Origin: Barnesiella sp. An22
Lineage (GTDB): Bacteria; Bacteroidota; Bacteroidia; Bacteroidales; Barnesiellaceae
DNA length: 64,000 nucleotides
Direction: 5' to 3'
NCBI RefSeq assembly: GCF_002159975.1
Contig: NZ_NFJR01000004.1
Location: forward strand, 124,001 to 188,000
Shown here piece by piece: positions 25,304 to 41,984 of this stretch. Positions within the stretch are counted from its first letter, which is position 1; each line of letters opens with the position of its first letter. The notes beneath the pieces are model-generated. The model worked only from the letters and a program-made list of their open reading frames with translations, made no database searches and was not told the origin of the DNA. The position numbers were made by a program, and so were the translations under genes.

Positions 25304-25390
25304 CCTTTCGGTTGTAAAACAAGTTCTCGGTCGGGGCAATTCCATTTGGAACTCTGGGTTTCATTTGTTTTTGCTCTCATCTTTCTTGTA

Positions 25391-25660
25391 TCTTCGGATA
25401 AGACAGGATACGGTTCGGGATAGTCAAAAACTGAAAAACTCCGTTTTTCTTTTGACTCTTCGCTCACCTTTCTGCCATCTTCGGATAAGATAGGATACGG
25501 TTCGGGATAGTCAAAACTGAAAAACTCCGTTTTTCTTTTGACTCTCCGCTCACCTTTCACTATCTTTGCACACTGCAAAATAGAATGTGGCCGGGCATGG
25601 TCAAACGCAGAAAACGGTTGTTTCTGTTTGATTTTGTACCCGCCTTTCTCTATTGGGGCA
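25391..25660 (+). repeat. Tandem 87-bp promoter-hairpin repeats
   Basis: Two nearly identical 87-bp units (25391-25477 and 25478-25564) are followed by a diverged third (about 25565-25660); a decayed unit may precede them. Each unit holds the hairpin AGTCAAAA...GAAAAAC-TCC-GTTTTTC...TTTTGACT (25422-25457 and 25509-25543). Its 3' arm includes a TTTG -33 element. In the third unit the outer arms read TCAAAC/GTTTGA, so pairing is kept by a double change. This array fills most of the 418-bp gap between the OmpA-like gene and proS. A diverged copy lies upstream of punA. Confidence 0.85.
25537..25568 (+). promoter_or_regulatory. Promoter of proS inside the repeat
   Basis: TTTG (25537-25540), 20-bp spacer, TATCTTTG (25561-25568). 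The -33 box is part of the 3' arm of the second repeat's hairpin. The resulting leader of about 145 nt would contain the third repeat's hairpin. Confidence 0.75.
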
Positions 25661-25720: not shown

Positions 25721-27202
25721 ATGGCAAAAGAGTTGAAAGAATTGACCAAGCGTGCCGATAACTATTCGCAATGGTACAACGACTTGGTGGTAAAGGCCGA
25801 CTTGGCAGAACAGTCGGCCGTGCGGGGCTGTATGGTAATCAAGCCCTATGGATATGCAATTTGGGAGAAGATGCAACGCCAGCTCGACGACATGTTCAAG
25901 GCGACGGGCCACGTGAATGCCTACTTCCCGTTGTTGATTCCGAAATCGTTCCTGAGCCGCGAGGCCGAGCACGTAGAGGGCTTTGCCAAAGAGTGCGCCG
26001 TAGTGACTCACTACCGCTTGAAAACCAACCCCGACGGCACGGGCGTAGTGGTAGACCCCGCCGCCAAACTCGAGGAGGAGCTCATCATCCGTCCTACCTC
26101 CGAGACCATTATCTGGAACACCTATAAAAACTGGATTCACTCCTATCGCGACCTGCCCATCCTGTGCAACCAGTGGGCCAACGTGTTTCGCTGGGAGATG
26201 CGTACCCGCCTCTTCCTGCGTACGGCCGAGTTTTTGTGGCAAGAGGGGCACACCGCCCACGCTACCCGCGAGGAGGCCGAGGCCGAGGCTCGTCGCATGC
26301 TCGAGGTTTATGCCGACTTTGCCGAGAACTTCATGGCCGTGCCGGTAATCAAGGGTGTGAAATCGGCCAACGAGCGTTTTGCCGGTGCCCTCGATACCTA
26401 TACCATCGAGGCCATGATGCAGGACGGCAAGGCCCTGCAGTCGGGTACGTCGCACTTCCTGGGGCAGAACTTCGCCAAGGCATTCGACGTGCAGTTCATC
26501 AACAAGAACAACGAGCTCGAATATGTGTGGGCTACCTCGTGGGGCGTATCTACCCGTCTGATGGGTGCCCTTATCATGACCCACAGCGACGACAACGGTC
26601 TGGTGTTGCCGCCGAAACTGGCTCCCATCCAGGTGGTGATTATCCCCATCTACAAGAATGCCGAGCAACTGCACGCCATCGACGTGAAGGCCGACGAAAT
26701 CGCCGGCAAGTTGCGCGCCATGGGTATCTCGGTCAAATACGACAACGCCGACAATAAACGCCCGGGCTTCAAGTTTGCCGACTATGAGCTGAAGGGTGTG
26801 CCCGTGCGTCTGGTCATGGGAGCCCGCGACCTCGAGAACGACACCGTAGAGGTGATGCGCCGCGATACGCTCGAAAAAGAGACGTTGCCCGTCGACAACA
26901 TCGAGCAGGTTGTAAAAGGTCTGCTCGACGAGATACAGGCCAATATCTTCCAGAAGGCTCTCAAGTTCCGTCAGGAGCACACCATTACGGTCGACAGCTA
27001 CGACGAGTTCAAAGAGAAGATCGAGGAGGGCGGCTTTATCCTGGCTCACTGGGACGGCACGACCGAGACCGAGGAGCGCATCAAGGAGGAGACCAAGGCG
27101 ACGATTCGCTGTATCCCGTTCGATGGCGATACCACGCCGGGCGTCTGCATGGTTACCGGCAAGCCGTCGGCTCGCCGCGTGCTCTTTGCCCGCTCGTACT
27201 AA
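25721..27202 (+). CDS. proS: Prolyl-tRNA synthetase (archaeal/eukaryotic type)
   Basis: Class II aminoacyl-tRNA synthetase charging tRNA-Pro, 493 aa. It is the short type without the bacterial editing insertion. Motifs: [14 protein letters not shown] near residue 35, motif 2 ([23 protein letters not shown]), motif 3 with G-T-S-H-F-L-G-Q, and the anticodon-binding domain (P-I-Q-V-V-I-I-P-I) followed by a C-terminal domain. The start M-A-K-E-L-K-E-L is well defined; the open frame further upstream runs through the repeats and is not used. Confidence 0.96.
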
Positions 27203-41867: not shown

Positions 41868-41951
41868 AGAATAGGAGAGTCGGCTCGGCATAGTCAAAAG
41901 TTGAAAACTATGTTTTCTATTTGCCACTGCTCTCGCCTTTCACTATATTTG
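41868..41951 (+). repeat. Diverged copy of the promoter-hairpin repeat upstream of punA
   Basis: This stretch shares with the proS repeats the order GATAGG/ATAGG, CGG-TCGG-ATAGTCAAAA, an inner hairpin (GAAAAC 41903-41908 with GTTTTC 41912-41917), TTTG, CGCC-TTTCAC and TATnTTTG. The outer arms are reduced to CAAA/TTTG. Spacing of all parts agrees with the proS copies 16 kb away. Confidence 0.75.
41920..41951 (+). promoter_or_regulatory. punA promoter
   Basis: TTTG (41920-41923), 20-bp spacer, TATATTTG (41944-41951), 33 bp before the punA ATG. It lies inside the repeat copy. Confidence 0.8.
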
Positions 41952-41984
41952 CAATCTTGGTTATTTATTAAAATAGTTACTGCG

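Follow-up and report, generated by a model that had tools for sequence, protein, structure and literature searches.

A family of palindromic repeats at Barnesiella promoters, probably a mobile element that inserts beside the -7 box

We analysed a window of 64,000 nucleotides (nt) from Barnesiella sp. An22 (NCBI RefSeq assembly GCF_002159975.1, contig NZ_NFJR01000004.1, positions 124,001 to 188,000 of the forward strand), in which a tandem array of palindromic repeat units precedes an open reading frame (ORF) that we, like the initial annotation, read as proS. The units belong to a multicopy family that lies before genes at promoter-like sites and keeps its pairing while its letters change. At a given promoter, units are present in some congeners and absent from others, they turn over between congeners, and near-identical units stand at unlinked loci. 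We consider it probable that the repeats are a promoter-borne mobile palindromic element of Bacteroidales, which would insert beside a -7 box and supply a new promoter.

The consensus for the primary sigma factor of Bacteroidetes is TAnnTTTG at -7 and TTTG at about -33, the latter motif not being found in Flavobacterium johnsoniae (PMC7366714). A covariance model, R1, was built from an alignment of 44 units (A1), and its matches in the window show four tandem units, 25315-25660, upstream of proS. The features of this region are as follows.

25315..25398, + strand: U0, the oldest, decayed unit, ending near TATCTTCG (R1, 24.6 bits, E 0.0049)
25399..25485, + strand: U1, with a decayed -7 box, CATCTTCG (R1, 69.5 bits; TRF array)
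25486..25570, + strand: U2, the best-preserved unit, with the predicted active promoter at its end (R1, 95.7 bits)
25576..25660, + strand: U3, a decayed unit in the proS leader (R1, 33.7 bits)
25509..25516, + strand: outer 5' arm of the U2 hairpin, AGTCAAAA (sequence, fold)
25519..25525, + strand: inner 5' arm of the U2 hairpin, GAAAAAC (sequence, fold)
25529..25535, + strand: inner 3' arm of the U2 hairpin, GTTTTTC (sequence, fold)
25536..25543, + strand: outer 3' arm of the U2 hairpin, TTTTGACT (sequence, fold)
25537..25540, + strand: putative -33 box TTTG within the 3' arm of U2 (sequence; consensus TTTG/TAnnTTTG in PMC7366714)
25561..25568, + strand: -7 box TATCTTTG of the predicted active proS promoter (sequence; 20-bp spacer from TTTG)
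25651..25658, + strand: decayed -7 box of U3, TATTGGGG (sequence; comparison with congeners)
25721..27202, + strand: presumed proS, prolyl-tRNA synthetase, the gene served by the array (ORF)

The initial annotation of this DNA described tandem repeats of about 87 bp, and the array was detected by TRF (period ~87 bp, 25376-25558, score 317) and by a second repeat search; the element measures about 80 bases in the family, and ~84 bp in the window. Three units had been counted. The near-identical pair U1 and U2 and the diverged U3 stand as described, and U0 is added as a fourth unit, which is decayed like U3 and can be aligned to the upstream part of the proS promoter region in a congener, G003. 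The arms AGTCAAAA/GAAAAAC and GTTTTTC/TTTTGACT are present in both U1 and U2, but the palindrome is longer than proposed and spans the whole unit. In U2 the TTTG of the 3' arm does lie 20 bp upstream of TATCTTTG. The promoter ending U2 is plausibly the active proS promoter, as it has the only intact TAnnTTTG among the four unit ends.

The initial annotation also placed a third hairpin, with a compensatory change in its arms, in the proS leader. The letters TCAAAC/GTTTGA are present in U3, but 25570-25640 folds no better than shuffled sequences (z +0.35), so that U3 alone is weak evidence for compensation. Where U3 has TATTGGGG, four congeners (G004, G001, G002 and G007) carry TATCTTTG or TATTTTTG, and the same CAAATCCTTTG follows; the end of U3 coincides with the position of their -7 box. 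Since U3 is a decayed unit, a leader hairpin at this place is weakly supported, and one kept by selection was rejected. With its weak fold and decayed -7 box, the evidence for pairing rests on the family.

That further copies exist in the genome was borne out. With 25391-25660 as query, BLAST returned 51 matches in the An22 genome (G000), far above chance, and R1 gave 136 matches at E<=0.01. After removal of overlapping echoes on the opposite strand, these correspond to 134 non-overlapping units in 75 head-to-tail arrays, a set that excludes U0, which falls under the cut of the genome search. The arrays comprise 42 single units, 18 doubles, 8 triples, 3 of four units and 4 of five. Units are short (about 63-92 bp) and non-coding, with the consensus short spacer - AAGATAGGAtgCGGyTCGGc - hairpin - gCTCrCCTTTCAC - TATCTTTG. 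The flanks CGGyTCGG and CTCrCCTTTC are conserved around a core that is variable yet paired; the hairpin cores fall into several types with very different letters, and unlike types adjoin in single arrays. By reading, uncounted, the spacer before AAGATAG is GTAG, TCAG, CCAG, GGAT or others, and a constant duplicated spacer was rejected since the spacers left of successive units differ within one array. Among tandem neighbours, 17 of 59 pairs are at least 90% identical and 31 of 59 are below 75%. Arrays therefore appear to gain units both by duplication and by the addition of other units, or else to change very fast.

Placement at promoters, as the initial annotation expected, is seen across the family. 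A strict gene caller placed a same-strand gene next downstream in 66 of the 75 arrays of G000, with a median of 42 nt from array end to start codon. The caller missed the starts of some obvious genes, and a mechanical search found a same-strand ORF of at least 50 amino acids (aa) downstream of every array (75/75); five of the arrays extend more than 30 nt into a called gene. A diverging gene lies upstream of 39 of the 75 arrays, and the fixed orientation is therefore not imposed by the neighbourhood. Many downstream genes are presumably core genes: from their first residues we take them to include argS, metG, obgE, recR, dapB, lepA, nfo, rsmD and dinB (names other than proS rest on such readings of protein beginnings, not on annotation). 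The last unit closes in TA(T/C)nTTTG in 60 of 75 arrays, as do 29 of 59 internal units. The main subfamily carries the -33 TTTG within its 3' hairpin arm; by reading, several subfamilies do not keep this motif. On the other side, TA(T/C)nTT occurs shortly upstream of 98 of the 134 units, at 4 nt from the model start in 66 and 8 nt in 21, and the left and right -7 octamers are the same in 15 of 20 scorable arrays.

A related observation concerns the left border: letters that follow the upstream -7 box often recur in mirrored form just ahead of the unit (TATCTTTG TTACACG AAGATA; TTTGAC...GTCGAA). The mirrored border forms a second small palindrome around the start-site region, as in L024 (1667), L160 and L154.

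The palindrome is imperfect and covers the entire unit, AAGATAG...CTATCTT included. As single-stranded DNA, 25483-25570 folds at -15 kcal/mol versus -5.7+-1.9 in shuffles (z -5.0), and 25398-25484 gives z -2.9. On A1, the 28 pairs along the whole unit are paired in 92.7% of cells, against 46.6-55.8% in slid controls and 86.5+-0.4 in shuffles; since the pairs were chosen on A1 itself, part of the excess over the slid versions is expected, which does not hold for double changes. Cells with a double change number 80, against 21.3+-3.7 in shuffles and reached in none of 500, so that pairing is conserved through compensatory change, as had been anticipated. Changes on both sides occur in 12 of the 28 pairs (7.2+-1.3 in shuffles); pair 32-55 shows U-A, C-G, A-U and G-C, and further pair types, 31, are unexceptional (72 of 500 shuffles reach this number). 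Covariation also links the left end, AAxATA, to the -7 box, TATxTT: the left end is complementary to the unit's own box in 100 of 122 units (75.9+-3.0 in shuffles) and to the upstream box in 84 of 98 (66.1+-2.4), counts that include tandem copies, which are not independent. Non-Watson-Crick cells on A1 are 28 G.T and 44 A.C, 12 of the latter at one pair with a fixed -7 base, and alignments A2 and A3 show a mild excess of G.T (127 to 97 and 55 to 40), both having been fitted to an RNA model that favours G.U. Because there is no clear lean to G.U and the -7 box lies within the stem, we infer that the folded molecule under constraint is DNA rather than RNA.

Evidence for movement comes from unlinked loci and from congeners. 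Identical 79-nt cores occur on different contigs, at C53:183452 and C1:20557, before genes that we read as obgE-like and sdaA-like. Among 8811 between-array unit pairs, 10 are at least 95% identical, and by gapped alignment their 40-nt flanks are 38-71% (right) and 50-79% (left) identical, the higher values occurring where the neighbour is another unit, as it often is on the left. The recR promoter is empty in three of the nine genus genomes (G002, G005 and G007); G001, G004, G006 and G008 have a single unit there, G003 has two and G000 has five. The empty promoter of G002 and G007 reads ..TTATTTCC TATTTTTG.., and the unit of G006, whose upstream flank resembles the empty promoters, lies between ATATTTCC TATATTTG and TATATTTG CAAACTCG. 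Upstream of obgE, R1 has no match in G001, G002, G003, G006, G007 and G008, one in G004 and three in both G005 and G000. At proS, G005 and G006 lack units; G001, G002, G004, G007 and G008 have one each (weak in G001 and G008, at 24.9 and 20.6 bits), G003 has two and G000 has four.

Turnover is also seen where units are shared. G000 and G001 both carry units at 25 orthologous promoters. There the last unit and the best unit of the orthologous array share 72.3% identity, close to the 70.0% average among last units of different G000 arrays, with downstream genes at 85.5%. For 23 of the 25, a closer relative exists elsewhere in G000, a count biased towards the many paralogues, and array size is equal in 8 of 25. 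Between G006 and a faecal record that is 98.5% identical outside the units, units differ at 13 of 169 columns versus 17 of 1125 elsewhere. When the closely related records L275 (6105-6273) and L080 (1414-1582) are compared, the 5' arms look exchanged between tandem units 1 and 2.

We propose that a unit inserts beside a -7 box already in place; this earlier box would stay upstream and a like box would close the unit, which would also supply its own -33, in the main subfamily from the 3' arm of the hairpin. The gene would keep a promoter, and insertion would therefore be nearly harmless. Orientation would be forced by insertion beside the -7 box, and the rebuilt box could accept the next unit, hence head-to-tail arrays of mixed subfamilies. 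Arrays may additionally grow and shrink through tandem duplication, with upstream units, no longer needed, decaying; the last promoter of an array would then be the active one. The copying machinery probably recognises folded DNA, hairpin or cruciform, because pairing and not sequence is conserved in the core. Insertion of a unit ending in a -7 box beside another such box would account together for direction, arrays, mixed types, the left box and tolerance by the host. Target-specific insertion of elements recognised through a hairpin is known for IS200/IS605 and REP, and the insertion proposed here would work likewise.

Several points weigh against mobility of this kind. By the strict gene caller, 9 of the 75 arrays have no same-strand gene next. 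The support from left boxes is qualified: 27 of 75 arrays have a TAnnTTTG within 26 nt left of the leftmost unit, and 7 of 1350 control windows, placed 150-600 nt farther upstream, contain one, but these windows are mostly coding and not matched in composition. The other 48 leftmost units lack a strict -7 box on the left; decay could be the cause, and where such boxes are present they may be the ends of further decayed units, as U0 illustrates. The proS region is 173 bp longer in G000 than in G003, the length of two units, and by our reading U1 and U2 separate a TATCTTTG from the CATGCCGCgAAAATAG found after it in G003. This alignment is not unique, however, and the extra length is spread over two gaps. 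Additionally, G001 has 55 arrays, and these include orthologous counterparts to 25 of the 75 in G000. With a thousand or so promoters available for insertion, at a guess, this overlap is above that of independent insertions, and some positions are therefore old, preferred or selected.

The search for a mobilising enzyme, which covered Y1_Tnp (PF01797) and no other family, found none. This domain is absent from 8 of the 9 genus genomes, G000 among them; it is present in the remaining one, in 6 of 25 repeat carriers and in 10 of 12 genomes without an R1 match. A mobiliser of RAYT/IS200 type in G000 was rejected on this result. By exact left-end matching, no longer autonomous version was seen in the genome: 3 of 32 matches did not belong to known units, and a control with the reversed pattern yielded 12.

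The main alternative to mobility is a functional, structure-dependent promoter module under selection and homogenised by gene conversion. The palindrome, as a cruciform or as protein-bound folded DNA, would tune promoters, and change would reflect gene conversion with compensatory substitution. We regard this as possible but clearly the less likely account. It would fit the placement before genes, the conserved flanks around a varying paired core and the persistence of units at the 25 orthologous promoters despite sequence turnover, a point that also counts against mobility; potential cruciform-forming inverted repeats upstream of genes are, moreover, already known. A selected module agrees poorly with congeners that have no unit at the same genes (3/9 genomes for recR, 6/9 for obgE and 2/9 for proS), with 0-5 units at one gene, with the lack of likeness between orthologous units and with the loss of the -33 TTTG in several subfamilies by reading. 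Taken by itself it leaves the near-identical units at unlinked promoters unexplained, although gene conversion could explain them.

A conventional miniature inverted-repeat transposable element (MITE) of an insertion sequence is unlikely. The element would have AAGATAG/CTATCTT as terminal inverted repeats and a target duplication, the promoter being incidental. The units are short and dispersed with complementary ends, dispersed copies can be near-identical, and the identical octamers in 15 of the 20 scorable arrays would suit a duplication. Nevertheless, such an element would not be expected to keep a single orientation towards the gene or regular head-to-tail arrays, and the ends of the unit are the -7 box and covary with it; nor did the search of the genome show a longer element with the same left end.

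Still less probable is an element acting in RNA, in which transcripts from inner promoters would begin with a hairpin serving as leader, terminator or mRNA stabiliser. An inner start site would fall just before the next hairpin, so that readthrough RNA would carry it. Against this, 42 of 75 arrays hold one unit only, the stem includes the -7 box, which is untranscribed from that promoter, and the wobble counts given above lend no clear support to a constraint on RNA. Rfam at gathering scores found only a tRNA in the window and no known RNA family at the repeats, and five carrier loci gave no match at E<=1. Finally, maintenance by mutation alone, through local tandem duplication and template switching in quasi-palindromes, would suit the similar tandem neighbours, the excess of differences within units between the near-identical records and the seemingly exchanged arms, but is very improbable: it would mend the conserved unpaired columns (23-63, T.C in 30 of 44 units; 27-60, two pyrimidines in 36 of 44), which therefore argue against simple palindrome correction, and it does not place near-identical units at unlinked promoters.

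The family extends beyond the genus. All nine Barnesiella genomes searched carry it (41-75 matches each, with 75 candidates scored per genome), and 14 of 60 genomes overall, An22 included, match R1. In an order-wide sample with 11 candidates scored per genome, 34 of 393 genomes, from 19 of 206 genera, matched at E<=1e-4. A class sample gave 6 of 295 genomes; one of these lies outside the order and has a single match, at 2.2e-6. A strict pattern found 14 stretches, in Barnesiella, Ca. Caccoplasma, Ca. Aphodosoma, Paraprevotella clara, Mediterranea massiliensis, an uncultured Alistipes and an uncultured Bacteroidales bacterium. The strict consensus is the same in records of Barnesiella, Paraprevotella, Mediterranea, Alistipes and other Bacteroidales, and some other families have their own hairpin cores within the same flanks. 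Patchy occurrence with a near-identical consensus fits spread, and old presence followed by loss may be an alternative.

U2 had no match among 72,556 plasmid records, nor did the strict pattern in viral contigs. With the L017 unit, matches were obtained in 7 of 50,697 phage records, of which three were examined and ORFs read in two (L275 and L276; MT836672.1 and MT835991.1). These records are named 'Bacteriophage sp.' and read as bacterial chromosome, with genes that we take to be uvrA and prmA in one and nadB, dapB, lepB and purD in the other. Carriage by phage or plasmid was rejected, the two phage records being deemed mislabelled bacterial DNA because of these chromosomal genes and because L275 is 97.7% identical to G006 over 1294 columns.

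We know of no description of this family in the open-licence literature searched, mostly titles and abstract openings, which agrees with the initial annotation and is weak evidence of absence. The closest idea is that of mobile promoters. A putative mobile promoter is defined as a short sequence that recurs, in similar form, ahead of several non-homologous genes of a genome; such promoters were reportedly described by Matus-Garcia et al. in 2012 and van Passel et al. in 2014. The present family resembles them in its 134 units and 75 arrays before different genes of one genome and in its propagation, seen in near-identical unlinked units, presence and absence among congeners, and turnover, and the mobile promoter cassette suggested by the initial annotation is well supported on the same grounds. 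The promoters here are predicted by consensus, from the TA(T/C)nTTTG of 60 of 75 last units. The family also has a defined palindrome, a -7 box on either border, arrays of head-to-tail units and interchangeable hairpin cores, which are not known to be part of that definition.

Among known elements, promoter-bearing MITEs come closest. Correia elements of Neisseria and BrickBuilt of Porphyromonas gingivalis are likewise short, dispersed and non-coding, with promoters near genes, and BrickBuilt shares tandem repeats and a host in Bacteroidales (PMC10969869, PMC4596501). BrickBuilt has 23-nt internal repeats, a leader and a tail with terminal inverted repeats, and bidirectional promoters. In the Barnesiella family the element is itself the tandem unit; it keeps one orientation and ends in the -7 box. 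REP/REPIN-RAYT systems are similar in their high-copy extragenic palindromes, arrays and recognition of a folded single strand (PMC3733652, PMC8049555). The Barnesiella family differs in having no Y1 transposase in G000, no constant GTAG tag and a promoter-like location. The large inverted repeat upstream of the P. gingivalis capsule operon, also in Bacteroidales and proposed to form a cruciform, is described for one locus and not as a dispersed family (PMC3969353). Regeneration of the -7 box, orientation and interchangeable hairpins conserved in pairing set the present family apart, and it appears to represent a hitherto undescribed means by which a DNA repeat can multiply and leave genes intact.

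More tentatively, the family may represent a new kind of mobile element that targets the primary-sigma -7 box, rebuilds the promoter, is recognised as a folded strand with interchangeable cores, provides the promoter of about 75 operons in one Barnesiella genome and spreads between Bacteroidales families. If the mobile reading is right, dozens of ordinary gut-bacterial gene promoters would not be ancestral and would have been, and go on being, replaced by copies of one element, which would avoid harm by rebuilding its landing site. This would offer a concrete route to rapid promoter rewiring and a test bed for 'promoter propagation', and would call for a search for an enzyme that copies folded DNA. 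The paired, freely varying core also provides a rare natural covariation experiment on DNA-level promoter structure.

The window holds one further member of the family, outside the proS array.

41869..41953, + strand: single unit ending in TATATTTG (R1, 88.9 bits), with a 271-aa ORF downstream

We read this ORF as a purine nucleoside phosphorylase. Relatives of proS were found at 69-100% identity in all 19 genomes searched; in G003 (L115) the match is split in two pieces with one TAG inside. By reading, a unit is followed by a putative RNase P RNA gene in L160 (5164-5247, Ca. Caccoplasma) and L166 (1501-1584, G243). Some arrays adjoin another intergenic repeat that appears to be unrelated and whose motifs include GCATCGGGGTGCGGTATGAC and CACCCCGCGCTGCGACGCGGGGTC; it was located in L023 and L024 near 6700, in L247 and L269 of G001 and in L268 of G008.
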